The notes below the pieces were generated by a model that ran no database searches, was not told the DNA's origin, and saw only the letters and a list, made by a program, of their open reading frames with translations. The position numbers were made by a program, and so were the translations under genes. Positions 37,430 through 58,917 of a DNA stretch of 64,000 nucleotides are shown in pieces. Every line of letters starts with the position of its first letter. The stretch's first letter is position 1. The stretch comes from Sphingomonas sp. 67-36 (lineage in GTDB: Bacteria; Pseudomonadota; Alphaproteobacteria; Sphingomonadales; Sphingomonadaceae), in assembly GCA_001897375.1 (NCBI GenBank), contig MKSU01000001.1:1-64000 (forward strand), read 5' to 3'.

Positions 37430-37458
37430 TCGCGTCTATATTTACACTTGGAGCTGGG

Positions 37459-38634: not shown

Positions 38635-38653
38635 TGAGAGGATTGGCGCGCGC

Positions 38654-40156: not shown

Positions 40157-40162
40157 CATTTG

Positions 40163-40181
40163 ACAATGTTTGTATCATTGT
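40163..40181. promoter_or_regulatory. dyad ACAATG-n7-CATTGT upstream of the SDR operon
   Basis: A perfect 6-base dyad in the 53-base gap between the ligase and the SDR. Inside it lies TGTATCAT (40171-40178), the same octamer as the arm of the dyad at 35273. TTGACA at 40160-40165 can act as a -35 box. The region probably contains a second, regulated promoter for the SDR-ECH-DUF35-thiolase unit. Confidence 0.5.
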
Positions 40182-40209
40182 TCTAGACTTCCGGAATAGG
40201 AGACGGGAT

Positions 40210-41010: not shown

Positions 41011-41018
41011 GCGCGGCG

Positions 41019-41795: not shown

Positions 41796-41824
41796 GCGAT
41801 GATCCCCTATATCCTGGAGACAGT

Positions 41825-42241
41825 TTGTTGAGCGATACCGGCGACTTCCTCGCCACTGCCGACCAGCCTTTTTGGCGGGCGCTGGCGCAGGGGCGGCTGA
41901 CGATGCAGCATTGCACCTGCGGTCAATGGCATTGGCCGGCAGTGTGGCGCTGCGGCGAATGCGGCCGATACGACCCGGCCTGGGAGGAGATCGCCTTTGC
42001 CGGCACCGTGTTCAGTTGGCAAACGAGCACGCACCGCTTTGGCGGGACCGAGGGGATTGCGGTGCCCTATACGTCGGTGCTGGTCGAAGTGGCCGGAACG
42101 GGAGGGCGGCGGCTGCTCGGGCTGCTCGAAGGCGGTGACGGCAGCGACATGGCAATCGGTCAGCCCGTGACCGGACGCATGGAGCCGGTCGAGGTGCGCG
42201 GGGAAATGGTCCCCGGCATTCGTTGGCAGGTAGCGGCATGA
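41825..42241 (+). CDS. DUF35 OB-fold protein with zinc ribbon
   Basis: A 138-residue DUF35 protein: an N-terminal helix and rubredoxin-like zinc ribbon with cysteines at 30, 32, 43 and 46 (CTCGQ and CGECG), then the OB-fold (TVFSWQTSTHRFGG, PYTSVLVEV). DUF35 proteins bind acyl-CoA and form complexes with thiolase-like partners, as in the Ltp2-ChsH2 retro-aldolase of steroid side-chain degradation. Its stop overlaps the thiolase-like start as ATGA, so the pair is translated together. A TTG start at 41825 lies five bases after GGAGA. Confidence 0.9.
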   Translation: MLSDTGDFLATADQPFWRALAQGRLTMQHCTCGQWHWPAVWRCGECGRYDPAWEEIAFAGTVFSWQTSTHRFGGTEGIAVPYTSVLVEVAGTGGRRLLGLLEGGDGSDMAIGQPVTGRMEPVEVRGEMVPGIRWQVAA

Positions 42242-43407: not shown

Positions 43408-43433
43408 CTTTACAATTGACGATCGATGTAAAG
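43408..43433. promoter_or_regulatory. dyad CTTTACA-n12-TGTAAAG, putative operator
   Basis: Two perfect 7-base arms around a 12-base spacer in the 69-base gap before the APH gene. It contains ACAATTGACGAT (43412-43423), identical to 49291-49302 upstream of the SDR/ACAD unit, with a TGT at the same distance in both. The APH-DUF7064-GMC-ALDH unit and the SDR-ACAD-APH unit may thus share a regulator, perhaps the TetR at 48646 between them. Confidence 0.6.
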
Positions 43434-43476
43434 AAATTCAGGCTGACGGCATAATCAGGACAAGTGAGCGAGCAGG

Positions 43477-44508
43477 ATGACGGTGACGGCGCAAAATCTC
43501 CAGCAAGACGATGAAGCGGCGGACCTGCTCGATTGGATAGCGCGGGCCACGGGCGCGAAAGATCTGGTTGCCGAACGGCCGGCACCGATGGGGCGCTCGC
43601 GCGATATCTGGACGATCGAGGGGCGCTATCCGGACGGGGCGCGCCTGTCGTCGGTGGTGCGGCACGAGGTCGGATCGGGGCCGTGGTCGGGTACGACCTT
43701 TACCCTCGCACGCGAGGCCAGCGTGCTTCGGTCGCTCCAGCCTACGCCGGTCAAGGTGCCCGCGGTGATCGCGGTATCGGACGACGGCACGCGCATCCTG
43801 ATCGAACGCCTGGCGGGGACCGCCGAATTCAAGTTCGACGATCCGGCGATGCGCGCGAGCACGATCGACGATTTCTGTCTCAACCTCGCACGGCTGCATC
43901 TGGTCGACGAGCGTGACCTGGAGCTCGACCTGCCCCGGCCGGCAAATGTCGCCGAGCACGCGCATCTCGACCTGCGCGACTATGTGCATTCATACGAGAA
44001 ACTCTGCCCGCGCGCGGCCGGGGTCGACGCCGGTTTCGCCTGGCTGTTCGCCAACGCACCGAAACACGTACAGCGGACATCGTTGCTGCAGGGCGATTGC
44101 GGGCCGGGCAATTTCATGCACCAGGACGGCAAGCTGACCGGGCTGATCGATTGGGAGGCCGCGCATTTCGGCGATCCGATGGATGACTTGGCGATGCTGT
44201 GGTTCCGCATCTGCTTCATGGGCGGCGGCAACGACCTGGACGACTGGTACCAGCTCTATGCCAAGCATAGCGGGCTCGACGTCGATCTCGATGCGATCGC
44301 CTATTACCGCGTCGCGCTGCTGACGCGCTGGGCAATCGCGGTGCTGGTGCGCCAGGGGAACGAGCCGGTGCGCGACGACGCTAAGCGCGAACGCATGCTG
44401 TCGCTGATCACCACGGCATTGCGCGATCCGTACAACCGTGAAGGCCGCGCGGATGCGTTGCCGCCGGTCGTGTCGGGCGCGATCCCCACGCATCTTCGGG
44501 AGAGTTGA
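43477..44508 (+). CDS. APH-fold phosphotransferase family protein (QGD variant)
   Basis: A 343-residue APH-fold protein, closest to the one at 3265 by its GNFM and LIDWEAAHFGDPMDDLA segments. The catalytic loop reads LLQGDCGPGNF, with Gln205 in place of the usual His; the catalytic Asp207, Asn212 and metal-binding Asp225 are kept. Thus phosphotransfer is still plausible. The ATG directly follows the operator region. It is the first gene of the unit with a DUF7064-type protein, a GMC oxidoreductase and an aldehyde dehydrogenase. Confidence 0.9.
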   Translation: MTVTAQNLQQDDEAADLLDWIARATGAKDLVAERPAPMGRSRDIWTIEGRYPDGARLSSVVRHEVGSGPWSGTTFTLAREASVLRSLQPTPVKVPAVIAVSDDGTRILIERLAGTAEFKFDDPAMRASTIDDFCLNLARLHLVDERDLELDLPRPANVAEHAHLDLRDYVHSYEKLCPRAAGVDAGFAWLFANAPKHVQRTSLLQGDCGPGNFMHQDGKLTGLIDWEAAHFGDPMDDLAMLWFRICFMGGGNDLDDWYQLYAKHSGLDVDLDAIAYYRVALLTRWAIAVLVRQGNEPVRDDAKRERMLSLITTALRDPYNREGRADALPPVVSGAIPTHLRES

Positions 44509-44510
44509 AC

Positions 44511-45533
44511 ATGGCCGAACTGGATATGAGCGCGGCCTTTGCGAACGCCGATATCGCCGATCACGGGAACCATGTCCCGGGAGAGGACGATTGGTGGCAG
44601 GAAAGCGCATTCTTCAGCCTGTGCGATCCGAAGGCTGGAGTGATCGGCTATTTCCGCCTCGGGCGGCACCCCAATCTGGGCGTGGCCAACAGTTATTACT
44701 GGACGACGGCGGAAACGCTTGGACTGGACGACAAGCAGTTCATGCACGGCCAGCCGCTGCCCGACGGCGACGTCAACAACACCACCATCGCGGGACTGAC
44801 CGCCAGGGCGATCCGGCCGATGCAGGAATATCAGCTCACGGTGAATGGCGACGGCTATCGGCTCGAGGCCAATTGGCAGCCGCATTTCTGGCCGATCATG
44901 GTCCATACCGCGGTCAAGGGCGGTGCGGGCATCGCCAACAAAGGCGGTCATTACAATGCGCTGTGCCGCGTCACCGGGTATGTCGAGAAGGACGGCCAGC
45001 GGGTGGCGATCGATGCCTACGGTTTTCTCGACCATAGCTGGGGCGTCCGCAAAAACCATTTCCCCGCATCGAAATGGATTCAGGCGTTCGCCGACCCGGA
45101 AAACTTCGTCCAGTGCTTTCCGGTGTCGAGCGTCGATGGTGCCGGCCGCTTCCTCATCGGCTATGCCTGCCGCGACGGCAAGCTGCGCCAATTGACCAAC
45201 GATTTCGAAACCAATTTCACGATGCGGGAGGACTGGATCACGCCCGCGGCGTGCGATGCCCGCTTCGTCGATGAGGATGGCCGGACTTTCCACGTCAAGG
45301 GCAAGACCGTGGGACCGGAGAGCGTGTTCCCTTTCCTCCACGGCAAATTCTGTGTGCATGTGCTTGCCGAGTTCGATCTCGACGGCAAGCCGGCGATCGG
45401 CATGCTCGAGAACACCAACCCCTGGGCAATCCCGGCAATCTACACCGACCGCTACGGAATCGATGAGCGCAGCATGTGGACGCGGGCGCCAGGCGAGATT
45501 GTCGACGGGCCGGGCGCGACGGTCGACGGCTGA
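44511..45533 (+). CDS. DUF7064-type protein with DHSWG motif
   Basis: A 340-residue paralogue of 31877 and 5183. Conserved blocks are DDWWQESAFFSLCD near 26, GHYNALCRVTGYVEKDG, YGFLDHSWGVRKNHFPASKW with DHSWG at 174-178, and FPFLHGKFCVHV. No signal peptide or membrane span. It starts two bases after the APH stop. Similar motif order to AttH/CrtC-type hydratases suggests, without proof, a role in hydration or dehydration of an intermediate. Position between a kinase-like and a GMC gene fits an alcohol-forming step. Confidence 0.87.
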   Translation: MAELDMSAAFANADIADHGNHVPGEDDWWQESAFFSLCDPKAGVIGYFRLGRHPNLGVANSYYWTTAETLGLDDKQFMHGQPLPDGDVNNTTIAGLTARAIRPMQEYQLTVNGDGYRLEANWQPHFWPIMVHTAVKGGAGIANKGGHYNALCRVTGYVEKDGQRVAIDAYGFLDHSWGVRKNHFPASKWIQAFADPENFVQCFPVSSVDGAGRFLIGYACRDGKLRQLTNDFETNFTMREDWITPAACDARFVDEDGRTFHVKGKTVGPESVFPFLHGKFCVHVLAEFDLDGKPAIGMLENTNPWAIPAIYTDRYGIDERSMWTRAPGEIVDGPGATVDG

Positions 45534-45538
45534 ACGTA

Positions 45539-47161
45539 ATGGCCGAGGCAGCCGACTATGTCATCGTGGGCGGCGGCAGTGCCGGGATCGTGCTCGCGGC
45601 GCGGCTGACCGAGGACCCTGACATCCAGGTCGTGCTGATCGAGGCGGGTGGCGAGGCGACTGCCTGGCAGGTCCAGATTCCCGTCGGCTACGCCGCGATG
45701 ATGGGCAATCCGAAGTACGATTGGGGCTATATGCACGACCCCGATCCGTCGATCCGCGGGCGATCGCTGATGTGGTCCGCCGGGCGACTGCTCGGCGGGG
45801 GCAGTTCGCTCAACGGGCAGGTCTATAATCGCGGCACGCGCGAGGATTATGACCGCTGGGCGGCTGCCGGGGCGACCGGCTGGAACTGGGACGAATGCCT
45901 GCCCTATTTCCGCAAGGCCGAGGGTTATGTTGGGCCAAAACTGGACTCGCATGGCACCGACGGACCGCTGACGGTGGCGCCGATGCGCGATACGCATCCG
46001 GTGACCGGCCTGTTCGTGAAGGCTTGCGGTCAGGTCGGCATTCCCGCGCTCGACGATTATTGCGGCGGGAGCATGGACGGAGTCTGCGCGACGCTGGCGA
46101 CCCAGCGGGGCGGTCTGCGCTGCAGCGTCGAAAAGGCCTATCTGCGACCGATCCGCAAGCGATCCAACCTGCGGGTGATGACCGACGCGCAAGTCGACCG
46201 GATCATCACGCTCGATCGTCGCGCGGTCGGCGCGCAGGGGCGGCGCAAGGACGGGTCGAGCTTTCAGGTTTCGGCGCGGCGCGAGGTCGTGGTGGCGGCC
46301 GGCGCTATCGGGTCGCCCGCGCTGCTGATCCGGTCGGGCATCGGCCCGGTAGCGCAGGTGCGGGCGCTGGGTAGGCCGGTGGTGCTCGATCGCGCGGAGG
46401 TCGGGCATCATCTGCAGGAGCATCCCGGCATCGCGATCAACAAGCTGGTCAACGTTCCAACCTACAATAGCCAGACCGGCCCGATCGATGGGGTCAAGGC
46501 GCTCGCCAGGTTCGTGACGCAGCGCAAAGGCATGATGACGACGCCGGCGGTACAGGGCGTCGGGCTGGCGCGGACGCTGCCGGATCTCGCCGAGCCCGAC
46601 GTCCAGCTCCATTTCCTGCCGGTCAATTACAATAACGATCCCAATGTCGAGAATCCCGGCGTCGCGACGATGGCCGAGAAGCGGCCGGGAGTGACGATCA
46701 TCGCCAATGTCTGCCGCCCCTGGTCGCGCGGGCGGGTCTATCTCGATCCGGGCGGGCCGGGCGGAAAGATCCGCATCGCGCATCAGTTGATCGGCGATCC
46801 GCGCGACCAGCAGACCCTGGTCGATAGCTGCAAGCTGATCGAACGGATTTTTGGCGCGGCGGTGTGGCGCCACCTGTTCGTCGGCAATAGCGCGCCCGCC
46901 GACGTGCCGGTGAGTGATGCGGGCTGGCTCGACTATGTCCGAGACCGCACGGCGTTGTGTTATCATCCGGTAGGTACGTGCCGTATGGGCAGCGATGCCG
47001 CGGCGGTGGTCGACCCGTCGCTGCGCGTGAACGGGATCGACGGACTGCGGGTGGTCGACGCTTCGATCATGCCGCTGCTGCCCGGCGCCAACACCAATGC
47101 CACGGCGATCATGATCGGCGAGCGGGCGGCGGACATCATCAGGGGCAACCGGATCGGATGA
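45539..47161 (+). CDS. GMC-family FAD-dependent alcohol dehydrogenase
   Basis: A 540-residue glucose-methanol-choline oxidoreductase. The FAD-binding GGGSAGIVLAARLTED is at 11-26, the GMC signature GRLLGGGSSLNGQVYNRG follows near 85, and the active-site His476 (CYHPVGTCRMG) and the Asn in ANTNATAIMIGE near 518-520 are present. It resembles choline dehydrogenase and polyethylene-glycol/terpene alcohol dehydrogenases of sphingomonads. It would oxidise a primary alcohol to the aldehyde used by the next gene, whose ATG overlaps its stop. Confidence 0.93.
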   Translation: MAEAADYVIVGGGSAGIVLAARLTEDPDIQVVLIEAGGEATAWQVQIPVGYAAMMGNPKYDWGYMHDPDPSIRGRSLMWSAGRLLGGGSSLNGQVYNRGTREDYDRWAAAGATGWNWDECLPYFRKAEGYVGPKLDSHGTDGPLTVAPMRDTHPVTGLFVKACGQVGIPALDDYCGGSMDGVCATLATQRGGLRCSVEKAYLRPIRKRSNLRVMTDAQVDRIITLDRRAVGAQGRRKDGSSFQVSARREVVVAAGAIGSPALLIRSGIGPVAQVRALGRPVVLDRAEVGHHLQEHPGIAINKLVNVPTYNSQTGPIDGVKALARFVTQRKGMMTTPAVQGVGLARTLPDLAEPDVQLHFLPVNYNNDPNVENPGVATMAEKRPGVTIIANVCRPWSRGRVYLDPGGPGGKIRIAHQLIGDPRDQQTLVDSCKLIERIFGAAVWRHLFVGNSAPADVPVSDAGWLDYVRDRTALCYHPVGTCRMGSDAAAVVDPSLRVNGIDGLRVVDASIMPLLPGANTNATAIMIGERAADIIRGNRIG

Positions 47162-48594
47162 CCGCGTACGACAGATTGTTCATCGGCGGCGAATGGGTCG
47201 CACCGGCCGGCAGCAGCGCGCGGATCGAGGTCCGGTCGCCTTATGACGGGTCGCTGACCGGTAGCGTGCCGTCGGCGGTCGAGGAGGATATCGATCGCGC
47301 GGTGGCGGCGGCTCGCGAGGCCTTCGACACCGGACCGTGGCCGCACAGTTCGCCGCTCGAGCGGCAGGTGGTGCTGGCCAGGTTTGTCGAACTCTATGCC
47401 GCCCGCGCGCAGGAATTCGCCGCGCTGATCACGCGCGAAAATGGGTCGCCGATCCAGTTCACCGCCATGATCGGCGCGGTGGTCGGACTGCAGAGCCAGG
47501 CCTATCTGGCGGCCGCGAAGGACTTTGCGTGGGAAACGCGCCAGCCCGCTTTCCCGCAAGGCGAGGTGATTTGTCGCCGCGTACCGGTCGGCGTGGTAGC
47601 GGCGGTCGTGCCATGGAACGCGCCGCATCAATCGGCTTTGGTCAAGCTGTTCCCTGCGCTGCTCGCTGGGTGTACCGCCATCCTCAAGGTCGCGCCGGAA
47701 ACCGCGCTCGATGGGCAGGTGCTAGGCGATCTGTTCATGGAGGCGGGCTTGCCGCGCGGCGTGTTGAGCATCGTCGCGGCGGATCGTGCGGTCAGCGAAT
47801 ATCTCGTTGGTCATCCCGGCGTGGACAAGATCGCCTTCACCGGATCGACCGCCGCGGGACGGCAGATCGCGGCGATCGCCGGCGCGCAGTTGAAGCGCAT
47901 CAGCCTCGAGCTCGGCGGCAAATCGCCGGCGATCGTGCTGCCCGGCGCGGACCAGCAAGCGGTGATCGGCGCGGTGTGCGCCGGGTCGCTGGCCAATTCC
48001 GGGCAGACCTGTGTCGCGCAGACGCGTATCCTGGTGCCGCGCGGCGAGCACCATGCGTTCGCCGCCCGGCTCGCCGCAAAGATCGCGGCGATGCGGATCG
48101 GCGATCCGTCCGATCCCGCGACCGACATCGGCCCGTTGGTCTCCGAGCGGCAGCGGCAGCGTGTCGCAGACTATATCGATATCGGCATCGCCGAGAATGC
48201 GACGGTGGCGACCGGCGGGCCGGGAATGCCCGATGGCATCGACGGCGGCGCCTTTGTCCGGCCGACCGTCTTCGCCAATGTCGACAATGGCATGCGTATT
48301 GCGCGCGAGGAGATTTTCGGTCCCGTGCTGTGCGTCATTCCCTATGACACGGTCGAGGATGCAGTCCGCATCGCCAATGACAGCGCTTACGGGCTGGCCG
48401 GCGGCGTGTGGTCGGCCCAGCCGCAGGAGGCGATCGGCGTGGGACGGAGCCTGCGCACCGGCAACGTCTCGATCAATGGCGGCTTTGCCGGCTTCGGCGC
48501 ACCGTTCGGCGGGTTCAAGCAGAGCGGTGTCGGCCGCGAGTTCGGCGGGGAAGGTATCTCGGCCTATACCGAATGGCAAAGCATCGGCGTTTGA
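47158..48594 (+). CDS. aldehyde dehydrogenase
   Basis: A 478-residue aldehyde dehydrogenase. VVAAVVPWNAPHQSALVKLFPALLAGC is the cofactor region, KIAFTGSTAAGRQ follows, then the catalytic Glu in SLELGGKSP and Cys in NSGQTCVAQTR. FGGFKQSGVGREFGG closes the active site. Overlap with the GMC stop (ATGA) indicates the two enzymes act in sequence, alcohol to aldehyde to acid. The acid could then be activated by one of the CoA ligases. Confidence 0.93.
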   Translation: MTAYDRLFIGGEWVAPAGSSARIEVRSPYDGSLTGSVPSAVEEDIDRAVAAAREAFDTGPWPHSSPLERQVVLARFVELYAARAQEFAALITRENGSPIQFTAMIGAVVGLQSQAYLAAAKDFAWETRQPAFPQGEVICRRVPVGVVAAVVPWNAPHQSALVKLFPALLAGCTAILKVAPETALDGQVLGDLFMEAGLPRGVLSIVAADRAVSEYLVGHPGVDKIAFTGSTAAGRQIAAIAGAQLKRISLELGGKSPAIVLPGADQQAVIGAVCAGSLANSGQTCVAQTRILVPRGEHHAFAARLAAKIAAMRIGDPSDPATDIGPLVSERQRQRVADYIDIGIAENATVATGGPGMPDGIDGGAFVRPTVFANVDNGMRIAREEIFGPVLCVIPYDTVEDAVRIANDSAYGLAGGVWSAQPQEAIGVGRSLRTGNVSINGGFAGFGAPFGGFKQSGVGREFGGEGISAYTEWQSIGV

Positions 48595-48645
48595 CCGCTC
48601 TGCCTGGCTGACGTAGCCCCGCTCCCGGGGTTGATTGGAGCGAGA

Positions 48646-49278
48646 ATGTTGCATTCAGAGGGGCGGGTGCTGCCGACGCGGGCGGATGAGGGCGATGCGA
48701 ACGCCGCGGCGCGCGAGCGCATCGCGGCATCGTCGCGCAATTGCTTCGAACGCTATGGCGTCAGGAAGACGACGATCGACGATATCGCGTCGGACGCGGG
48801 TATCTCGCGCGGCAGCGTCTATCGCTATTTCGCGAACAAGGAGGATATCCTGCGATATGTGTCCGCCGGCGAGATCACGCGGGTCAATCGAGAGATCCGC
48901 AGCCGCTTGCCGCGGGTGGAGAATTACCAGGAATTGCTGACGGAATCGCTGCTGCTCGCAACGGTGGTCGGGCGCGACAACAAATATGTCCGCATGTTCG
49001 TCGAATCGATCGAATACACGGCAAAGAGCGCCGACCCCTCGACGCAGGAATATGTCGAGACCAGCGCCGTGTGGGCGCCGCTGATCGAATCCGCGATGAA
49101 GAAGGGCGAGTTCGCCGACGACCTGTCCCGGGGCGATATCGCGAGCTGGCTGATCCTGTCGGAAGCTTTGCTGTTCACCAAGGCGGATTCGCCCAACGTG
49201 ACCGAGGACGAACTACGCCGGTTCATCCGGCGCTTCGTGGTGATGCCGCTGTTTAACAAGGACCGGCGCGCGGGCTGA
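48646..49278 (+). CDS. TetR/AcrR-family transcriptional regulator
   Basis: A 210-residue regulator. The helix-turn-helix is ASSRNCFERYGVRKTTIDDIASDAGISRGSVYRYFANKED. The rest has ENYQELLTESLLLATVVGRDNKYVRMFVES and DDLSRGDIASWLILSEALL, shared with the regulator at 35397. GGAG lies five bases before the ATG at 48646. It sits between the APH-GMC-ALDH unit and the SDR-ACAD-APH unit, both preceded by the ACAATTGACGAT element, and is the natural candidate to bind it. Confidence 0.92.
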   Translation: MLHSEGRVLPTRADEGDANAAARERIAASSRNCFERYGVRKTTIDDIASDAGISRGSVYRYFANKEDILRYVSAGEITRVNREIRSRLPRVENYQELLTESLLLATVVGRDNKYVRMFVESIEYTAKSADPSTQEYVETSAVWAPLIESAMKKGEFADDLSRGDIASWLILSEALLFTKADSPNVTEDELRRFIRRFVVMPLFNKDRRAG

Positions 49279-49286
49279 TCCGCGGA

Positions 49287-49313
49287 ATTGACAATTGACG
49301 ATATTTGTTCAAT
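49287..49313 (+). promoter_or_regulatory. putative operator with ACAATTGACGAT core
   Basis: ATTGACAA and TTGTTCAAT form an imperfect dyad around a 10-base centre, nine bases after the TetR stop and 24 bases before the SDR start. The core ACAATTGACGAT is shared with 43412-43423, and TTGTTCAATCG with 10964-10974. Two overlapping TTGAC hexamers could serve as -35 boxes. Confidence 0.55.
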
Positions 49314-49337
49314 CGCTCTTTCAATAGGAGAGGGTGT

Positions 49338-50072
49338 TTGGACGAGCTGAACTTCACCGGCCGGACCGTGTGCGTCGTCGGCGGATCGAGTGGGATCGGT
49401 AACGGTATCGCCCAGGCGTTTCGCGGGCGAGGCGCGACCGTACACGTGACGGGCACGTGCGACGCCGCCGATTATGATGCCGAGCAGGGTAGCGATCTGA
49501 GCGGCTTGCACTATGCCCGGCTCGACCTGCTCGATCCCGGTGCCATCGAGGAATTCGCGCCGGCGTTCGACCGTCTCGACATGCTCGTCCTCAGCCAGGG
49601 AACGGTGCTCTACGGACGCCAGGAATTCGCCCGCGAGGGCTGGGATCGCGTCATGGCGGTCAATCTCGACAGCGTGATGGCCTGCGCAATGCGGTTCCGG
49701 CCGATGCTCGCCGCGAGCCGGGGCAGCCTGATAACCATCGGGTCGATCGTTGCGCTGAACACCAGCCGCGGCAACCCGGCCTATGCCGCGTCCAAGGCGG
49801 CGGTGCATCACCTGACCGCGACGCTGGGCGAAGCGTGGGCCGGCGAGGGCATCCGCGTCAACGGCATCGCACCGGGTCTGGTCAGCACCAAGCTGACCGC
49901 CGTGACGATGGACCATCCCAGGCGATCCGAAGCGGCCATCGCGAGCATTCCGCTCGGTCGCGCCGGGCAACCGGCGGACATTGCCGGTGTGGCGCTGTTC
50001 CTTGCCTCGCCGCTCGCCGCGTTCGTCGTCGGGCAGACGATCGTCGCCGATGGCGGGATGACCCTTAGCTAG
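49338..50072 (+). CDS. short-chain dehydrogenase/reductase
   Basis: A 244-residue SDR. The cofactor turn is VCVVGGSSGIGNGIAQAF, with LSQGTVLYGR in place of the usual NNAG, TIGSIVALNTSRG and the active-site AYAASKAAVHHL. The TTG start at 49338 has AGGAGAG upstream and begins DELNFTGR; a longer ATG start at 49305 would overlap the operator. It heads a unit with the acyl-CoA dehydrogenase and the APH gene, and could be the 3-hydroxyacyl-CoA dehydrogenase of that module. Confidence 0.9.
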   Translation: MDELNFTGRTVCVVGGSSGIGNGIAQAFRGRGATVHVTGTCDAADYDAEQGSDLSGLHYARLDLLDPGAIEEFAPAFDRLDMLVLSQGTVLYGRQEFAREGWDRVMAVNLDSVMACAMRFRPMLAASRGSLITIGSIVALNTSRGNPAYAASKAAVHHLTATLGEAWAGEGIRVNGIAPGLVSTKLTAVTMDHPRRSEAAIASIPLGRAGQPADIAGVALFLASPLAAFVVGQTIVADGGMTLS

Positions 50073-50087
50073 CCTTGAGGAACGGCC

Positions 50088-51311
50088 ATGCTTTTCGAAT
50101 TCGACGCCAAGACCCGCGAGCTGATCGACCGGCTGACCGGGTTCATGGACGCCCATGTCTATCCAGTCGAACAGGAAGTGCACGACTGGACAGGCGATCC
50201 TGCCAATCTGTGGCGGCCCTGGCCGGGGATCAGCGATCTGAAGAGCAAAGCGAAGGCGGCGGGACTGTGGAACCTGTTCCTGCCACACGAATATGGCGCC
50301 TTCAGCCCGGGTCTGAGCAATCTGCAATATGCGCCGCTCGCCGAGATCATGGGCCGCGTGCCATGGTCGTCCGAAGTCTTCAATTGCTCGGCACCCGACA
50401 CCGGCAACATGGAAGTGCTGGCGCGCTATGGTTCGCCCGGGCAGCAGGAGCGCTGGTTGCGTCCGCTGCTCGATGGGGACATCCGCTCCTGCTATGCCAT
50501 GACCGAGCCGCAAGTGGCGTCGTCGGATGCGACCAATCTCGAAACGACGATCGTCGCGGATGGCGACGATTATGTCGTCAATGGCCGCAAATGGTGGATT
50601 TCGGGTTTCATGGACCCGCGCGCGACCGTGCTGCTGGTGATGGGCAAGACGGTGATGGACGCGCCGCGCCACCAGCAGCATTCGACGATCATCGTGCCCA
50701 GGGACACACCGGGCATCAGCGTGGTGCGCACGACGAATGTGCTTGGCCGCAACCACTCGCCGGGGGGCGAGGCCGAACTGCTGTTCGACAACGTGCGCGT
50801 GCCGGCCGGTAATCTGATCCTCGGCGAAGGACGTGGGTTCGAGATCGCGCAGGGACGGCTGGGTCCCGGTCGTATCCATCATTGCATGCGGTCGATCGGC
50901 CAGGCGCAGCGGGCGCTGGAATATATGTGCCACCGCGTCGACGGCCGGGTCGCTTTCGGCCACAAGCTCGGCGAACAGAGCAGCATCCGCCAGGATGTCG
51001 CCAAATCGTTCTGCGAGATCGAGCAGGCGCGATTGCTGACGTTGAAGGCGGCCGATTTCATGGATCGCTACGGCAACAAGGTGGCGCGCGACATGATCGC
51101 CGCGATCAAGGTCGTAGCGCCGCAAATGGCGCAGAACGTGCTGGACCGGGCGATGCAGGCTCACGGCGCCATGGGCCTGTGCGACGATACGCCGATTGCC
51201 TATGCCTTCGCCGTCAACCGCTTCCTCCGGATAGCCGACGGCCCCGATGAAGTGCACATGGCGCAACTCGGCCGGCTGAAGATTGCCGAATATGCGAGCG
51301 CGGCGTGCTGA
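50088..51311 (+). CDS. acyl-CoA dehydrogenase (ACAD10/11-like)
   Basis: A 407-residue acyl-CoA dehydrogenase. Visible are [22 protein letters not shown] and [23 protein letters not shown] in the middle domain, [21 protein letters not shown] for FAD and CoA, and the C-terminal [34 protein letters not shown]. The W-W-I/T-S/T-G and [10 protein letters not shown] features are those of the ACAD10/ACAD11 subgroup. The stop overlaps the APH start by seven bases; in animals this dehydrogenase and the APH domain are one protein. It would make or process an enoyl-CoA from a branched or hydroxylated acyl-CoA. Confidence 0.93.
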
Positions 51312-52345
51312 CGGATGGGTGGCGGCCGCTGGTCGACGAGACCAGACTGGCGCGCTGGATGGATGCGCGCGGGCTGGGAAGCGGCCCCCTGTCGGATTTT
51401 CGGCTGTTGGGCGGCGGCACGCAGAACCTGCTTCTGCGCTTTTGCCGGGAGAATGCCGCCTACGTCCTGCGCCGTCCCTCGCACCATCCACGTCCCGAAG
51501 CCAATGAGACGATGCGGCGCGAAGCGCGCCTGCTTGCCGCGCTGAAGGACCAGCCGGTGCCGCATCCGGCGCTGATTGCCGCATGCGACGATCCGGATAT
51601 AGTCGGGGCGGCATTCTACCTGATGGAACCGGTCGATGGCGTGAACGTCGCGGTCGATCCGGCGCCGATCCATTGCCGGCCTGACGTCCAGCACGCGATG
51701 GGCCTGGCAATGGTCGATGCGATCGCCGTGCTCGGGGAGCTCGATCACCGCGGGCTCGGCCTCGGCACGTTCGGCAGGCCCGAAAGGTATCTCGAACGTC
51801 AGACGTCGCGCTGGACGCGGCAATTGGAAAGCTACGCGTCGTTTGCGGGGTGGCCGGGTACGGCGTCGTTGCCGGGCCTCGGCGATATCGCCGCCTGGCT
51901 TGCCGAGCGTCGTCCGCAAAGCTTTCGTCCGGGCATCATCCATGGCGATTATCACATCGCCAATATTCTGTTCGAGCCCGATCGCGCCAACGTTGCCGCG
52001 ATCGTCGACTGGGAACTGAGCACGATCGGCGATCCGCTGATCGACCTCGGCTGGATGCTTGCGACATGGGCAGGCGACGATGGTGCGCGACCAGTGGTCA
52101 GGGTTGAGCCATGGGTTGGTTATCCGACACCGGCGGAATTGATCGACCGCTATGCGGCGCAGTCGTCACGGTCGGTTGCGGCGATCGACTGGTACGTGGT
52201 CCTTGCATGTTACAAGCTCGGCATCATTCTCGAAGGCACGTTCGCTCGCGCCTGTGCGGGGTTGGCGGACCGCCAGACCGGTGAAGAACTGCACGCATTT
52301 GCCATCGCGCTGTTCTCGCGTGCGCTCGAACGGATGCACCGATGA
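51305..52345 (+). CDS. APH-fold kinase-like protein, partner of ACAD10/11-type dehydrogenase
   Basis: A 346-residue APH-fold protein with [13 protein letters not shown] as nucleotide loop, [13 protein letters not shown] (His213-Asp215, Asn220) and [20 protein letters not shown] (Asp235). The GTG start at 51305 overlaps the ACAD stop by seven bases. This is the domain pair found in ACAD10 and ACAD11, where the kinase phosphorylates a 4-hydroxyacyl-CoA and the dehydrogenase domain eliminates phosphate. Here the two are split. A frameshifted copy of the same pair occurs at 15736-17604. Confidence 0.92.
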
Positions 52346-52412
52346 CGGGTTCCGACACCGGGTTCTTGCCGCGGCCATCACGGTCGCCGCCGCGATCGGG
52401 AGGTGGGTTGGC

Positions 52413-53075
52413 GTGACGAGCGTTTCGGATGCCGTTTCAAGGCGAATGTCGGTCCGGGCCTTCCTGCCGGACTGCCCGCCCCCCGATGTGATCAAGGATC
52501 TGGTCCGGCGCGCCGCCCGCGCCCCCTCGGGCGGCAACCTCCAGCCATGGCATGTCGAGGTTCTCACGGGGGAACCGCTTGTCGGGCTTCTGGAGACCGT
52601 GAGGCGTCGGGCCCCGGATCCGCTGCCCGGCTACACCGTCTACCCTAACAAACTCTGGGAACCTTATCGCAGTCGCCGCTTCGAAAATGCCGAGGCGCTA
52701 TATTCGACCTTGTCCATCGCCCGAGAGGACAAGGCGGCACGGTTGGGGCAACTGGCGCGCAACGCCGAATTGTTCGGCGCGCCGGTGGGCGTTTTCCTGT
52801 TCATCGACCGCAGGATGGGTCCTCCGCAATGGGCGGATATTGGCATGTACCTGCAGACGCTGATGCTGCTCGCCGTGGAAAAAGGAATAGACACCTGTCC
52901 CCAGGAATTCTGGAGTCTTTACGCGTATAGCGTCGAGCGTTTTCTCGACATGCCCGAGCAATTGATGCTCTTTTGCGGGCTCGCCCTCGGCTATCGCGAC
53001 CGGGATGCTCCGATCAACACGCTGGCCACCAGTCGAGCGCCCACCGACGAATGGCTGCGATTGCGCGGGTTCTGA
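52413..53075 (+). CDS. nitroreductase-family flavoprotein
   Basis: A 220-residue FMN-dependent protein of the nitroreductase fold. The N-terminal SVRAFLPDCPPPDVIKDLVRRAARAPSGGNLQPWHVEVL carries the FMN-phosphate contacts, and the C-terminal FCGLALGYRDRDAPIN is the other FMN side. The GTG at 52413 has GGGAGG upstream. Members reduce nitro groups, quinones or enones; its location after the beta-oxidation module suggests an enoyl or quinone reductase role, which is inference. Confidence 0.9.
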   Translation: MTSVSDAVSRRMSVRAFLPDCPPPDVIKDLVRRAARAPSGGNLQPWHVEVLTGEPLVGLLETVRRRAPDPLPGYTVYPNKLWEPYRSRRFENAEALYSTLSIAREDKAARLGQLARNAELFGAPVGVFLFIDRRMGPPQWADIGMYLQTLMLLAVEKGIDTCPQEFWSLYAYSVERFLDMPEQLMLFCGLALGYRDRDAPINTLATSRAPTDEWLRLRGF

Positions 53076-53122
53076 ATAGCCGCCGCGCGGTTCCGGCGGC
53101 CTGCTGAAACAAGGTAGCGAAC

Positions 53123-54109
53123 ATGAAATCTGTTCAGGCGGAAAAGCTCGATTCGGTCGATGACTATCGGATGGTCGAGATCGACATCCCGGCCGTGGCC
53201 AGTGGCGACGTCCTGGTTCAGGTCGCCACCTGCGGCATGGGCTATGTCGATGCGCTGATCGCGCTCGGCCGCTATCAGGTCAAGCCGCCTTTGCCGTTTG
53301 TGCCTGGCCAGGAGATTGGTGGGACCGTCGTAGCAACAGGCGAGGGGGTGCAGACCGTCCGACACGGCGATCGAGTGATGGCCTTCGGCTTCGGCGGCGG
53401 TCTGGCCGAATACGTCGCCGCAAAGGAGAACATGGTCGCGCGCATTCCCGATGCCATGACGATGGAGGAAGCTGCGATCTTCCGGACCAATTACCTGACA
53501 GCCTTGCACGGCCTGGTCGACCGGGCCGCGATCGCCGCCGGCGAGTGCATGCTCGTCTTCGGCTCGGCCGGCGGTGTGGGGACTGCCGCGATCCAGATCG
53601 GGCGCATCCTGGGCGCCGAGATCATCGCCGCGGCATCGACCGAGACGAAACGCGCCTTCGCGTTGGCAAATGGCGCTCAGCAGACCATCGACACGGAGCC
53701 GGACGGGTGGCGGGACAGACTGAAGGCGCTGTGCGACCGCCAAGGGCCCACGGTGGTATTCGACCCCGTCTGTGGGCCCCTCTTCGAGCCGGCGTTCCGC
53801 GCGCAGGCCTGGGGTGGTCGCCATTTGGTCGTTGGGTTTGCCGGCGGCCTGATTCCAAGGCTTCCCGTCAATCTGTCGCTGATGAAAGGCGCCGCGCTGG
53901 TTGGGGTCGATGTGCGTCAGTTTCAATTGTTCGAGCCCGGACGGACGCGAGGCCATCTCATTCGCTTGCTTGAATGGGTCGAGGAAGGGCGCCTGTCGCC
54001 GCCGGTAGGAAAGATCTTTCCGTTTGGCGATTATGCCGCGGCAATGACTCACGGGCTGTCGGGGACCGGCTCAGGCAAGGCAGTGGTTCGTATTTCGGAC
54101 GATCTCTAG
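53123..54109 (+). CDS. NADPH:quinone oxidoreductase-like medium-chain reductase
   Basis: A 328-residue zinc-free medium-chain reductase. PFVPGQEIGGTVVATGEGV, FRTNYLTALHGLVDRAAIAAGECMLVFGSAGGVGTAAIQIGRILGAEIIAAAS and ISDDL at the end fit the quinone/enoyl reductase group; no zinc-binding cysteines are present. It may reduce an activated double bond of an intermediate. It starts 47 bases after the nitroreductase and is the last gene before the IS remnant. Confidence 0.92.
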   Translation: MKSVQAEKLDSVDDYRMVEIDIPAVASGDVLVQVATCGMGYVDALIALGRYQVKPPLPFVPGQEIGGTVVATGEGVQTVRHGDRVMAFGFGGGLAEYVAAKENMVARIPDAMTMEEAAIFRTNYLTALHGLVDRAAIAAGECMLVFGSAGGVGTAAIQIGRILGAEIIAAASTETKRAFALANGAQQTIDTEPDGWRDRLKALCDRQGPTVVFDPVCGPLFEPAFRAQAWGGRHLVVGFAGGLIPRLPVNLSLMKGAALVGVDVRQFQLFEPGRTRGHLIRLLEWVEEGRLSPPVGKIFPFGDYAAAMTHGLSGTGSGKAVVRISDDL

Positions 54110-54379: not shown

Positions 54380-55340
54380 GATGAGGTGTCCGAGGCACGG
54401 CGGCTGCGGACGCTCGAGGAGGAGAATGTCCGGCTGAAGAAGCTGCTGGCCGAAGCGATGCTCGACAACGTGGTGCTGAAGGATCTTGCATCAAAAAAAT
54501 GGTGACGCCCGGCGCTAAGCGGGAAGCCGTCGCCCATGCTCGTGAACTTCACGGGCTGAGCGAGCGTCGGGCGTGCGATCTGGTCGGGGTGAGCAGGCGA
54601 GTGATCCGATATCGATCGTCGCGGCCGGACGATGGTCCATTGCGGCAACGGTTGCGCGAGCTGGCGGCGGAGCGCCGCCGGTTCGGCTATCGGCGCCTCG
54701 GTTATCTGCTGGCGCGTGAGGTCATGAGGCCAACCACAAGAAGCTGCTGCGGATATATCGCGAGGAGAACCTGCGGGTCCGCCGTCGCGGTGGCTGCAAG
54801 CGGGCCTTGGGCACGCGGGCGCCGATGGTACTGCCGGATGGGCCAAACCAGCGCTGGTCGCTGGACTTCGTCTCTGACACCTTGACGTGCAGTCGGCGGT
54901 TCCGCATCCTGTGCGTGGTGGACGACTACTCGCGGGAATGCCTGGCGCTGGTGGCCGACACGTCGCTCTCGGGCGTACGGGTCGCTCGGGAATTGACACG
55001 GCTGATCGGGATGCTCGGCAAGCCGCATACGGTGGTCAGCGACAATGGCACCGAACTGACCTCGTCAGCCATCCTGCGCTGGTCGCAGGAGCGGCGGGTT
55101 GAGTGGCACTATATCGCGCCAGGCAAGCCGATGCAGAACGGCTTCGTCGAGAGCTTCAATGGTCGCCTGCGCGACGAATGCCTCAACGAGACCTTGTTCA
55201 CCTCGCTGGCCCACGCCCGGTTCGTGCTCGATGCCTGGCGGCACAATTACAACCACGTCAGACCACACTCGAAACTGGGCGGGAAGACCCCGCCGAGATC
55301 GCCGGCCAAACACCATGAAGGAGCTGGACTCTACCTCTGA
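54380..55340 (+). mobile_element. IS3-family insertion sequence remnant
   Basis: The 3' end of orfA (EVSEARRLRTLEEENVRLKKLL to KDLASKKW, stop at 54504) is followed by orfB. At the junction lies a run of seven A, the typical slippery site for programmed frameshifting in this family. OrfB starts VTPGAKREAVAHARELHG; the DDE residues are in [16 protein letters not shown] and [17 protein letters not shown]. The 5' two thirds of orfA are missing, and orfB carries a further one-base loss near 54723 ([10 protein letters not shown] is split). No clear inverted repeats were found, so the element is probably dead. It separates the catabolic cluster from the sulfatase locus. Confidence 0.85.
54499..55340 (+). 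pseudogene. IS3-family transposase orfB, frameshifted
   Basis: The transposase's N-terminal part (MVTPGAKREAV to LAREV) ends out of frame at about 54723; the catalytic part, from [16 protein letters not shown] to the stop at 55340, continues in another frame. All three DDE residues survive. A single missing G in the GAGGGTCAT type sequence would explain the break. The product would not be functional unless the read is wrong. Confidence 0.85.
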
Positions 55341-55697
55341 ATGGTAACAATCAGGGGAGCACGTCAGCCAGTATGGCCTCCACCTCAACACGCAGCGCCT
55401 TCGCGATCGCATCGGGAGTCCATTCCGGCTCAAGCGCATCTGGCGTTTCGCGACCGCAAAATCCCCTCGCGTCGGTTTGCGAAGCCCCGCCAATGGGGTG
55501 GGGACCGGCAATCCGAAGAAGGTATCAAACGCGTGATCGATCCAATCCCGTCCGCGCGGCTGCAAATCGAGCTTGAACACGAACCAGCGTAGCGCGGTCG
55601 GGCCCAGCCTATGCGCGAGGTTGGTGGCGGCGATGACCGAGCGTCGGCGTTCATTTGATACCGGAGACTGCCCCGCATACCTTTAAGTCAATCGACG
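55341..55697 (-). other. unrecognised minus-strand coding remnant next to the IS
   Basis: Between the IS and the next promoter a minus-strand frame reads RRSVIAATNLAHRLGPTALRWFVFKLDLQPRGRDWIDHAFDTFFGLPVPTPLAGL, with a one-base shift before EWTPDAIAKALRVEVEAILADVL. The residue composition is protein-like and not that of random frames, but I do not recognise the family and there is no start codon. It looks like the middle part of a gene cut by the IS or by deletion. No other feature was found in this stretch. Confidence 0.45.
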
Positions 55698-55721
55698 GAT
55701 TCTGCATTGACATGCAGAATC
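55698..55721 (+). promoter_or_regulatory. dyad GATTCTGCA-TTGACA-TGCAGAATC, promoter/operator of the TonB-sulfatase locus
   Basis: Two perfect 9-base arms enclose exactly the hexamer TTGACA, a consensus -35 box. TACCTT follows 16 bases after it as a fair -10. The TonB receptor starts about 90 bases downstream. A protein bound to this dyad would block RNA polymerase, so repression by a TetR-type regulator, such as the one at 61224, is likely. The dyad is seen directly; the rest is inference. Confidence 0.72.
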
Positions 55722-55809
55722 GATGCGCTACCTTGAAAACTGCACCATAGGATAAAAATGGGTGGGGTGACCCAGATTCCGCGGTGACATGGGAGAGGGA
55801 GCGGAAGCC

Positions 55810-58800
55810 GTGAAAAAGCAGTTCACCAGCATCTTGTTATCCGGCGCCAGCGCCGTATGGCTCGCGTCGCCTTCGCCAGCCGTCGCGCAAGTTGATGCGC
55901 CAAAGCCCGCGGTTGCGAATTCCGCCAACGCGCAGGCTTCGGCGGCGAACGATGCCTCTGGCGCGAACGATCAATCGGAGGTCGTCGTTACCGGTTCGCG
56001 CATTGTGCGCGACGGTTATACGGCGCCGACTCCGGTCACCGTCGCGACCACCGAGGAACTTGCGAAAACCACGCCTTCCAGCGTTCCGGACGCCCTGAAC
56101 AAGCTTCCGCAATTCTCGAACTCGCTGAGCCCGTCCAAGTCCGCAAATAACTTCTCGAATCTGCCGATCCACGGGAACGTGCTCAATCTGCGGGGGCTCG
56201 GCACGCCGAGCAACAATCCCAAAGGGCCGTTGCGCACGCTGATTCTGTTCGATGGCATCCGCGTTTCGCCGACGGAATATGTCGGCACGGTCGACACCAA
56301 TGTGCTGCCCGAACTGCTCATGCAACGTGTCGACGTGGTCACCGGCGGCGCTTCGGCGCAATGGGGATCGGATGCGGTCGCGGGGGTGGTCAATTTCGTT
56401 CTCGACAAGAAATTCACGGGCTTCAAGGGAGTTGCTCAAGCCGGAACTTCGCAACGCGGCGACAACGGTAATCAGCGTCTTGGCGCCGCCTGGGGTTCGG
56501 ATTTCGCCGGCGGCCGGGGGCATATCGAGCTGAGCGGCGAATACACCAACAATGAAGGCATGCTGCGCCGCGACCGGGATTTCTCCACGAAGGGCTACAA
56601 TTTCGTCGGGAGCGTGACCAGCACTTGCACGCTGGCGGCAAGCGGTCAGTCACGGACGTGCACCGCCGCTCCGGGCACCGCCGCCAATCCCTATATCGTC
56701 CTTCCCGATATCCGTATCTCGGCGCTTGCCGCCAATGGCCGCATCACCGCCGCCAGCAATGCGGGGAACCCGTTTGTCGGGCAGGTCATCAACAACGACG
56801 GAAGCACGCGCCCGTTCAACCTGGGTACTGCGGTCGGCACCACGGGCTTCCAGCAAGGCGGCGACGGGTATGCGATCCCGACCGACACCAATGCGATCGC
56901 GCCGCTTCGGAATTATTCGGGATTCGGACGTGTCAGCTATGAAGTGACCGACGGCATCACTGCTTTTGCCCAAGGCCTCTACGCGCGCAGCCAGTATCAC
57001 TATTTCACTCAGGGCAACTCGCTGGTTCCTCCGTCCGAGGCGGCGACGATCTACAAGGGCAACCCTTATCTATCGAGTGCTTTGAACGCGGCTCTGCCGA
57101 CCGCGAATGATTATTATACCGTCGGCCAGCAGGATGCCGGGCAGCCCAAGCCGATCGCGCGCGAGCAGACCGATTATTGGATGGTGACCGCTGGCCTGGA
57201 TGGCAAGATTTCCGGCCTGAACTGGCAACTTGCTTATACGCACGGCGATTCCGTGCATAACATGGCGAATAGCGGCCTCTATGATAACAGGAAACTATAT
57301 GCGGCGCTTGATGTCGTAACCAATCCGGCCAATGGGCAACCGACCTGCCGCGTGTTGCTCGATCCCAATTACGCATCGCAATATGCCGGCTGCCAACCCC
57401 TTGACGTGCTGCACGGCGATCCCTCGAAATCGACGCCCGCCGGATACGCTTATGCGACGGGGACGTCGCGATATCGCGCGACGTTCAGGCAGGATTCGGT
57501 TACCGCGAATCTCAGTGGCAGCCTGTTCGAATTGCCTGCCGGCCCGGTCGATTTCGCCGTCGGCGCCGAATATCGTCACCAGTCGCTGCTGCTGACCAGC
57601 AATGCCGATCCGGCGCTGTTGTCGGGGTCGACGGCGGCCGAAACGGCGGCGCTCCGCGCGCAATATTTCGCGGGCTTGCGCGGTGTGCCTTCGACCGCCC
57701 TGTTCTACTGGCTCACGAATGTCGGCTCGGGGGCCGGCAGCCTGGGCGTCAAGGAAGCCTATGGCGAACTCGCGGTGCCGATCCTGAAGGACGTGCCCTT
57801 CTTCCGCGAGCTGAGCGCGAACGGCGCGGTGCGCGTCACCGATTATTCGACGTCGGGCACGGTCACCACCTGGAAGGTCGGCGGCACGTGGAGGCCGATC
57901 CCGGAAATCCTGCTGCGCGGCACCTATTCGCACGATATCCGCGCGCCCAATCTCTATGAGCTCTATGCCGGCCCGCAGAGCGGCATCGGCATCGTGAACG
58001 ACGTGCAGAACGCCGCCAAGACCTACGGCAGCGGCGATAACGTCAACGCGAACACGGTGACTTCGGGCAACCCGAATCTGAAGCCGGAGAAGGCGAACAC
58101 CTATACGTTCGGCGGCGTCTTCTCGCCGGGTTTCCTGCCGGGCTTTTCGGCGGCGATAGATTATTACCACATCAAGGTTTCGGGCCTGATCGACTCCTTG
58201 TCGGCTCAGCAGATCCTGACCAACTGCCTGAACGCGGGCGGCTCGGGAGCGCCTGAATGCGCGCTGATCGATCGTGCGTCGCCGACCTCCTTCCCGTCGC
58301 TGGTCCGTCTCACGCCGGCGAACATCGCTTTCCTCACGACATCGGGCATCGACTTCGACGTGAGCTATCGCGCGGCGGTCGGTTCGGGCGCGCTGGGCAT
58401 CCGGCTGTACGCCAACTATCTCGATAAGTTCGACGCCCAGCAATATACGGGCGCGCCGATCTCCCATTATGCGGGCGTCAGCGTCGTCGGCAGCAACCCG
58501 CAGGGCTTTCCGCGGTGGCGCGCAAACCTGACGGTCGATTACACCAATGGTCCGCTCGGCATCACCTTCGGCGAGCAATATATCGGCAAGATGCGACTGG
58601 ATATTCCGGGCGGCAGCACGCCGATCCAGTTCGTCGATCCGAACGTCAAGCCGGTCTGGTATTCCGATCTGACACTGCGTTACACCGTGCCGTCGACGGG
58701 TGGAAACTTCGAGTTCTTCACGACCGTCAACAATCTGTTCGACAAGCAGCCGCCGATCATTCCGGGCACCGTTCCGGGCGTGAACCCGCCGACCAATATC

Positions 58801-58857
58801 GCGCTCTACGATATCGTCGGTCGTGCCTTTACCTTCGGCGCGCGCGTGAAGTTCTGA
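55810..58857 (+). CDS. TonB-dependent outer-membrane receptor
   Basis: A receptor of 1,015 residues from the GTG at 55810, which has GAGAGGGAG upstream and gives a signal peptide KKQFTSILLSGASAVWLASPSPAVAQ; an ATG at 55789 would add seven hydrophilic residues. The TonB-box region reads SEVVVTGSRI, the plug has LNLRGLGTPSNN, RTLILFDGIRV and VDVVTGGASAQWGSDAVAGVVNF, and the barrel ends with an aromatic residue (ARVKF). The receptor is long, with large loops typical of uptake of organic substrates. It is followed by an arylsulfatase, so it may import a sulfated organic compound. Confidence 0.94.
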   Translation: MKKQFTSILLSGASAVWLASPSPAVAQVDAPKPAVANSANAQASAANDASGANDQSEVVVTGSRIVRDGYTAPTPVTVATTEELAKTTPSSVPDALNKLPQFSNSLSPSKSANNFSNLPIHGNVLNLRGLGTPSNNPKGPLRTLILFDGIRVSPTEYVGTVDTNVLPELLMQRVDVVTGGASAQWGSDAVAGVVNFVLDKKFTGFKGVAQAGTSQRGDNGNQRLGAAWGSDFAGGRGHIELSGEYTNNEGMLRRDRDFSTKGYNFVGSVTSTCTLAASGQSRTCTAAPGTAANPYIVLPDIRISALAANGRITAASNAGNPFVGQVINNDGSTRPFNLGTAVGTTGFQQGGDGYAIPTDTNAIAPLRNYSGFGRVSYEVTDGITAFAQGLYARSQYHYFTQGNSLVPPSEAATIYKGNPYLSSALNAALPTANDYYTVGQQDAGQPKPIAREQTDYWMVTAGLDGKISGLNWQLAYTHGDSVHNMANSGLYDNRKLYAALDVVTNPANGQPTCRVLLDPNYASQYAGCQPLDVLHGDPSKSTPAGYAYATGTSRYRATFRQDSVTANLSGSLFELPAGPVDFAVGAEYRHQSLLLTSNADPALLSGSTAAETAALRAQYFAGLRGVPSTALFYWLTNVGSGAGSLGVKEAYGELAVPILKDVPFFRELSANGAVRVTDYSTSGTVTTWKVGGTWRPIPEILLRGTYSHDIRAPNLYELYAGPQSGIGIVNDVQNAAKTYGSGDNVNANTVTSGNPNLKPEKANTYTFGGVFSPGFLPGFSAAIDYYHIKVSGLIDSLSAQQILTNCLNAGGSGAPECALIDRASPTSFPSLVRLTPANIAFLTTSGIDFDVSYRAAVGSGALGIRLYANYLDKFDAQQYTGAPISHYAGVSVVGSNPQGFPRWRANLTVDYTNGPLGITFGEQYIGKMRLDIPGGSTPIQFVDPNVKPVWYSDLTLRYTVPSTGGNFEFFTTVNNLFDKQPPIIPGTVPGVNPPTNIALYDIVGRAFTFGARVKF

Positions 58858-58860
58858 TCG

Positions 58861-58891
58861 ATCGGGCGGTGGGATCATCTGCCGCCCCGAT
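58861..58891 (+). terminator. hairpin after the TonB receptor, partial terminator or processing site
   Basis: ATCGGG-CGG (58861-58869) pairs with CCGCCCCGAT (58882-58891) in a nine-pair stem with one bulged base and a 12-base loop. No T run follows, so complete termination is unlikely. It lies between the receptor stop and the sulfatase start and may lower sulfatase expression relative to the receptor. Confidence 0.45.
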
Positions 58892-58917
58892 TGCTTTGCA
58901 AGGGAATATCGGGGTTC

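Follow-up and report, generated by a model that had tools for sequence, protein, structure and literature searches.

An SDR-ACAD-kinase gene trio in Sphingomonas sp. 67-36 proposed to act as an ATP-driven dehydration module for CoA-bound acids

The 64,000-nucleotide stretch of Sphingomonas sp. 67-36 DNA analyzed here (the window) carries three adjoining genes for a short-chain dehydrogenase/reductase (SDR), an acyl-CoA dehydrogenase (ACAD) and a kinase of the aminoglycoside phosphotransferase (APH) fold. The unit is this trio, which is larger than the ACAD-kinase pair first given. Based on genes, residues, linkage and trees, we propose that the three genes form an ATP-driven dehydration module through which CoA-bound acids oxygenated at C4 enter beta-oxidation, and we place the probability of this reading at about 0.6. 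The features of the trio, all on the forward strand, are as follows.

49305..50072, forward: SDR (Pfam adh_short_C2, E 1.9e-51), trio member, putative 4-oxo/4-hydroxyacyl-CoA oxidoreductase
50088..51311, forward: ACAD10/11-type ACAD (PDB matches, tree), proposed 4-phosphoacyl-CoA phosphate-eliminating enzyme
50856..50891, forward: phosphate-pocket motif R257, R262, H265 and R268 by alignment (ACAD11 R626, R631, H634 and R637)
51237..51239, forward: D384, predicted catalytic base (ACAD11 D753), aligned in 68 of 68 rows
51305..52345, forward: APH-fold kinase of the trio branch (Pfam APH, PF01636, E 4e-37)
51797..51964, forward: kinase residues R165, D215 and N220 by alignment (ACAD11 R176, D220 and N225)

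The ACAD gene starts with ATG and encodes 407 aa, while the kinase gene starts with a GTG inside the ACAD stop region and encodes 346 aa. The two share seven bases, gtgctga, as the first-pass annotation of this DNA had described, which suggests translational coupling; overlaps of four bases are found at the related loci L162 and L164. Between the SDR gene and the ACAD gene lie 15 bases, and by eye the SDR start is better placed at TTG 49338, after aggagagg, than at the called position. All three open reading frames (ORFs) are full length, lack internal stops and keep every active-site residue tested. The ACAD carries the Pfam domains Acyl-CoA_dh_N (E 5.6e-11), Acyl-CoA_dh_M (1.4e-20) and Acyl-CoA_dh_1 (1.5e-33). 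The only other SDR copy above 40% in this genome (61% identity) lies in a second trio, at C2:123896-126907.

The best PDB matches of the ACAD are 4hr3, mouse ACAD11 (8v3u and 8v3v) and human ACAD11 (2wbi), at E values from 5.6e-123 to 2.5e-120, while the next ACAD follows at 2.1e-37; identity to mouse ACAD11 is about 51%. A cryo-EM study of ACAD11 assigns D753 as the base and R626, H634 and R637 as the pocket for the 4-phosphate, with R631 common to ACADs (PMC12440821). The window ACAD has the equivalents D384, R257, H265, R268 and R262, respectively. Among 68 ACAD11-type rows (66 of 125 collected ACADs and two PDB chains), R626, R631 and D753 are kept in 68 each, and H634 and R637 in 67 each, with L125 as the one exception for both. 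Ordinary ACADs of the same genome mostly have E, G or A at the position of D384. The genome gave 31 ACAD matches, 20 of them with a locus; six of the 20 carry the full signature, among them a distant ACAD at C17:204612 and, at 16.8 kb, part of a broken ACAD, and the phosphate pocket with the Asp base is absent from the other 14. Since the five-residue signature is present, an ordinary ACAD was rejected as a candidate. The signature is a simple rule for separating such ACADs from ordinary dehydrogenases that carry the same annotation.

The relationships of these enzymes were resolved in a tree of 34 ACADs, with the signature columns included, which is the careful counterpart of an earlier, quick tree of the ACAD clade. 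It separates 23 signature rows from 11 ordinary ACADs of this genome (bootstrap 99, SH-aLRT [Shimodaira-Hasegawa-like approximate likelihood ratio test] 97, 200/200 bootstrap trees), and the signature rows fall into three branches, each supported at 100/99. The ACAD10/11-type branch has 13 rows and unites the window ACAD with mouse ACAD11, apart from the ordinary ACADs. The B branch has seven rows, from plasmids of Variovorax, Caulobacter, Massilia and Rhodococcus and from Pseudomonas-type genomes; the best solved relatives of a B-branch protein are likewise 4hr3 and ACAD11 (9.5e-75 to 4.7e-67), with the next at 6.3e-42. The C branch has three rows, including the C17:204612 ACAD. At loci L237 and L238 a distant signature ACAD is flanked by an SDR on one side and a commoner-type kinase on the other. 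The C17 gene (204612-205730, locus L197) encodes a distant ACAD, 33-35% identical to that of the window, with the full phosphate-pocket signature; neither a kinase nor an SDR of the L238 type was found within the 14 kb fetched around it.

The kinase residues D215, N220 and R165 align with D220 (catalytic), N225 and R176 (CoA contact) of ACAD11, and the helix Glu with its neighboring Arg corresponds to R72-E73. R72-E73, R165, D215, N220 and D235 are invariant across 30 kinases of the trio branch. The structure model (mean predicted local distance difference test [pLDDT] 92.9, predicted template modeling score [pTM] 0.90) matches 3dxp first, followed by 25-hydroxysteroid kinase and Rv3168, in both fold lists. 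The sequence search ranks 9o56, 3dxp and ACAD11 in that order and gives E 4.3e-6 for 25-hydroxysteroid kinase. The ACAD11 kinase chain is absent among the best 50 matches of either fold list, which is no evidence against kinship. In the kinase tree, all 23 trio-locus rows form one branch (SH-aLRT 99), and a branch beside it (SH-aLRT 91) holds the ACAD11 kinase, 3dxp and 9o56; the tree is a quick one with long outgroups, two of whose six rows are misplaced inside the ACAD11/3dxp/9o56 branch. In a comparison of 48 kinases with the window and PDB sequences, the window kinase is 49-59% identical to those of its own branch. The view that the pair represents the kinase and ACAD halves of ACAD10/11 is supported. 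On the sequence side, the refuting results named in the first-pass annotation were looked for and not seen: the kinase motifs are intact, and the ACAD falls inside the ACAD11 clade.

The pairing of the two enzymes extends well beyond this genome. Among 99 genomes of the family (this one included), 76 carry an ACAD10/11-type ACAD (E<=1e-80), and an APH match at E<=1e-20 lies within 5 kb at 69 of the 102 ACAD places, four of which are from this genome; the pairing is therefore beyond chance. At three loci of the commoner lineage (L071, L073 and L075), a Zn-alcohol dehydrogenase of about 360 aa stands between ACAD and kinase, which is again a keto/hydroxy enzyme and speaks for the proposed module. 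The kinase type of the window is rarer, occurring in 6 of 398 genomes of the phylum (E<=1e-55, this genome included) and in 8/119 genomes from what is inferred to be the genus Pseudomonas (44-54% identity). The genus name comes from a 16S primer, which marked 15 of the 398 genomes, 13 in one family and two in another. On plasmids, the type appears in 20 records at a minimum of 46% identity, with Sphingomonas, Sulfitobacter, Variovorax, Caulobacter, Massilia, Cupriavidus, Rhodococcus and Nonomuraea as hosts, as judged from 20 full-length rows (H61-H80 of 217 records).

For linkage to this kinase type, 48 loci were taken, and 47 were kept after L062, which has no such kinase, was dropped. The window and 22 others were found via the ACAD and 24 via the kinase alone, 11 of the latter from the plasmid records; some of the kinase-found loci are alike (L231, L232, L233 and L248; L163 and L170). 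A full-signature ACAD lies within 7 kb of the kinase in 41/47 loci, and an SDR ortholog of at least 45% identity in 33/47. The signature ACADs comprise 26 that are at least 50% identical to that of the window and 15 that reach only 32-41%. Among the 24 kinase-found loci, a signature ACAD is present in 18 (a distant one in 15 of them) and an SDR in 10. A further 13 ACADs in these neighborhoods are without the signature, which is how their column was defined, and ordinary ACADs are under-counted since three signature-type queries were used. The window order SDR-ACAD-APH recurs in eight loci (L161, L162, L164, L230-L233 and L248), each with a distant ACAD, and the orders APH-SDR-ACAD and SDR-APH-ACAD are also met. 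At L068-L070, the ACAD that accompanies the kinase and SDR falls elsewhere within the ACAD11 clade in the quick tree. From these counts and L068-L070, we conclude that the association of kinase with SDR tends to persist when the ACAD is exchanged for one of a different lineage, in most cases one that has the same pocket.

The closest described chemistry is the lva pathway of P. putida, in which the SDR LvaD reduces levulinyl-CoA, LvaA phosphorylates and LvaC eliminates (PMC6692424). By analogy, the trio would work like LvaD, LvaA and LvaC, with a kinase of a separate branch; because the trio rows branch apart, the sequences favor calling the kinase LvaA-like and not an ACAD11 kinase proper. 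The SDR would interconvert 4-oxo- and 4-hydroxyacyl-CoA, setting the alcohol, and the kinase, judging from its fold, residues and linkage, would phosphorylate the hydroxyl to make it a leaving group. In the ACAD, D384 would take the C2 proton, with a hydride parked transiently on FAD; the phosphate held by R257, H265 and R268 would then be expelled and the hydride returned, yielding 2-enoyl-CoA without net oxidation. Such a phosphate-eliminating ACAD step was measured for ACAD10/11 and reported for LvaC (PMC11342911, PMC12440821, PMC6692424). As the hydride is given back, no electron acceptor would be needed, which is how the ACAD10 authors explain it (PMC11342911). Later steps may fall to the same-strand genes at 40210-43407, which encode a hydratase, an SDR and a thiolase-like protein. 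Immediately upstream of the SDR in Massilia and in the Pseudomonas-type loci L230-L233 there is a CoA transferase of about 740-760 aa, whose family (PF02515) was checked in L231 alone and which could take the place of LvaE. Phosphorylation followed by phosphate elimination, as anticipated in the first-pass annotation, is the best reading of the sequences.

The trio lies within a run of called genes, from 36203 to 54109, which are all on the forward strand. Their order is P450, Rieske oxygenase, AMP-ligase, SDR, enoyl-CoA hydratase, a small ORF, thiolase-like gene and APH, followed by DUF7064, GMC, aldehyde dehydrogenase, TetR, SDR, ACAD, APH, nitroreductase and quinone oxidoreductase. The rows that bear on the discussion below are:

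48631..49278, forward: TetR-type gene (TetR_N, E 5.1e-14) directly upstream of the trio, possibly its regulator
36203-37429, forward: P450
34090-35232 (reverse), 37288-38634 (forward) and 6191-7435 (reverse): Rieske oxygenases
38606-40156: AMP-ligase nearest to the trio, 11 kb upstream
40210-43407, forward: hydratase, SDR and thiolase-like genes
43477-44508, forward: APH kinase gene, overlapping the following DUF7064/7065 gene by four bases
44505-45533 (forward), 31877-32905 (reverse) and 5183-6145 (reverse): DUF7064/DUF7065 genes
45476-47161, forward: GMC
3265-4338, reverse: further kinase, pairing with the 43477-44508 kinase in the tree (SH-aLRT 97)

The P450, Rieske and GMC genes noted in the first-pass annotation are indeed present, but the functional link it drew to them is not supported; the relatives of the trio that were examined sit among varied genes. 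Downstream of the kinase lie nitroreductase and quinone-oxidoreductase genes (52152-54109). In Rhodococcus sp. 008 (L165) the kinase likewise has one of each as neighbors, and on plasmid pJE1 a quinone oxidoreductase lies beside the trio; a literature search returned no paper naming pJE1 together with Sphingomonas.

The genes at 43477-45533 are, on sequence grounds, a possible second ATP-driven dehydration pair, and the window may thus hold two kinds of kinase/phosphate-eliminase pair within 9 kb; that both serve one pathway is a guess. The 44505 protein matches the 25-phosphosteroid lyase 9fzn at E 8.7e-4 alone. A profile of the three DUF7064 sequences reaches 2.4e-6 over the N-terminal half only, a distant relation, and the 31877 copy alone gave no match at 0.01. 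The proteins at 31877-32905 and 5183-6145 are 61% and 32% identical to the 44505 protein. At 0.001, 25-hydroxysteroid kinase was absent from the matches of the 43477 kinase, which weighs against a full match to the steroid system, and the 3265 kinase matches it weakly (4.6e-4). The Rv3169 family model also matches at this pair; Rv3168, an APH of known structure, neighbors Rv3169. At E<=1e-15, the DUF7064 protein is found in one of 59 family genomes, namely this one, with all three copies in the window and none in the 58 others; plasmids gave none at 1e-12.

The window also contains broken genes. At 15754-17458 (reverse strand), kinase pieces in several frames lie beside an incomplete C-branch ACAD, which is 77% identical to the C17 ACAD and carries the signature; these are the remains of a third kinase-ACAD pair. 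At about 27839-31812, broken or frame-shifted pieces resemble genes of the Pseudomonas-type cluster L238, namely its SDR, its ACAD and two others, with the ORF 28980-30284 reading as SDR plus ACAD. Because of the latter pieces, the island seems to be partly decaying. Further downstream, at 54807-61272, an integrase-core (rve) piece is followed by TonB receptor and sulfatase genes, possibly the edge of a mobile catabolic island.

Several observations weigh against the dehydration module as proposed. No acyl-CoA ligase adjoins the trio, the nearest AMP-ligase being that at 38606-40156, and no LvaB-like small gene lies between its members (gaps of 15 and -7 bases). In the family, a kinase within 5 kb is missing at 33 of the 102 ACAD places, and among the 47 kinase loci six have no signature ACAD within 7 kb (the kinase-found L165, L167, L169, L199, L246 and L247) and 14 no SDR. 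At 13 Pseudomonas-family loci (L180-L192), an ACAD11-type ACAD of 57-59% identity stands without any kinase match nearby, representing either an unlinked pair or another use; in the genus inferred as Pseudomonas, 116/119 genomes have such an ACAD and 117/119 a kinase match, mostly one each. The ACAD of L125 (Halioglobus pacificus), which has a kinase nearby, carries Tyr for H634 and Gly for R637 and may have changed function. On the kinase side, the window protein falls outside the ACAD11 kinase branch, with 25-33% identity to 26 kinases of other lineages and 28% to that of ACAD11, and the CoA contact R86 of the ACAD11 paper could not be placed, as the Arg beside the helix Glu is number 84 in the numbering that fits D220. 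Finally, in the search for LvaA, LvaC and LvaD, made with kinase and ACAD across the 119 inferred-Pseudomonas genomes, no lva-like cluster was recognized in the loci fetched.

Some of the same evidence suits other explanations. The kinase-then-eliminase chemistry could act on a cyclic or branched CoA ester, such as a terpenoid or steroid fragment from the neighboring oxygenases, and not on a straight 4-hydroxy fatty acid; specificity would then be set by the separate kinase branch and its SDR. The position of the kinase apart from that of ACAD11, the 25-hydroxysteroid kinases as second-best folds, the oxygenase-rich surroundings here and in Massilia (P450s) and the 25-phosphosteroid-lyase-like gene 5 kb upstream all argue for such a substrate, which we nevertheless consider unlikely, though worth keeping in view. 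That the trio is a non-working leftover of a decaying catabolic island would fit the broken kinase/ACAD pieces at 15754-17458 and the SDR/ACAD/thiolase-like pieces at about 27.8-31.8 kb, but is improbable given three full-length, stop-free ORFs with all tested active-site residues kept. Least probable is a small-molecule or drug kinase next to an ordinary dehydrogenase in an incidental neighborhood. The APH family does include resistance kinases; however, a drug-resistance kinase was rejected, since the weak NCBIfam match to APH(3') scores 26.8 bits against a cut-off of 205 and Mph(F) 23.1 against 650, and the ACAD, which is linked to the kinase in 41/47 loci, carries both the phosphate pocket and the Asp base. 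Returning to the ATP-driven dehydration module, a broader idea is that the phosphate-eliminating ACADs are one three-branch superclade used interchangeably by one kinase branch, and that the island dehydrates twice with unrelated eliminases (43477-45533 and 49305-52345) on two hydroxyls of one isoprenoid- or steroid-like substrate, the bacterium being equipped with oxygenases as well. We offer this combined idea tentatively, with the odds against it. Should the two pairs share a substrate, ATP-driven dehydration would have a more general role in catabolism than is currently assumed.

For 4-hydroxy acids, the kinase-plus-ACAD route was assigned in bacteria in 2017 and in mammals only in 2024-2025 (PMC11342911, PMC12440821). 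In P. putida, LvaE, LvaD, LvaA with LvaB, and LvaC convert levulinate to a beta-oxidation intermediate (PMC6692424). Separate kinase and ACAD genes are thus a described bacterial form (PMC6692424, PMC12440821, PMC11342911), with LvaA/LvaC and a Burkholderia pair that replaced the ACAD10 domains in vitro as examples (PMC6692424, PMC11342911), and because of this the suggestion of an undescribed catabolic device fails. The first-pass annotation was right about the pair itself, and did not mention the SDR, that the kinase belongs to a separate branch, that its ACAD partner changes, or the pair at 43477-45533.

Compared with the lva pathway of P. putida KT2440 (Rand 2017, as described in PMC6692424, PMC12440821 and PMC11342911), the trio shares clustered, separate genes for an SDR, an APH-type kinase and an ACAD, and the same proposed steps. 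It differs in its gene order and in having no adjoining lvaB or lvaE. An LvaB-like gene is likewise absent from the P. citronellolis cluster as described, which has a histidine phosphatase gene (PMC6692424). In mammals, the kinase and the ACAD are parts of one protein in both ACAD10 and ACAD11 (PMC11342911). With these the trio shares the ACAD pocket and base, the kinase fold and its catalytic residues; unlike them, it has two genes with the ACAD first, no HAD domain, and a kinase outside the ACAD11 kinase branch. In the 25-hydroxysteroid kinase/25-phosphosteroid lyase system of Sterolibacterium denitrificans (9fsg, 9ft5, 9fzn), an APH-fold kinase is also combined with phosphate elimination, and ATP-dependent dehydration of an alcohol, as proposed for the trio, is shared. 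There, the kinase phosphorylates a tertiary alcohol before the elimination, the lyase gene being unknown in 2021 (PMC8449060). Unlike the trio, that system acts on a tertiary steroid alcohol, uses no CoA ester and has a lyase which is not an ACAD; the likeness on the lyase side is to the window pair 43477-45533, not to the trio. An open-access literature search gave no paper on this kinase branch with its own SDR or on the two further ACAD branches. As the two-gene bacterial form is already known, this locus is therefore a variant of it, and one which draws attention to a kinase branch that has an SDR of its own, and to two more branches of ACADs.
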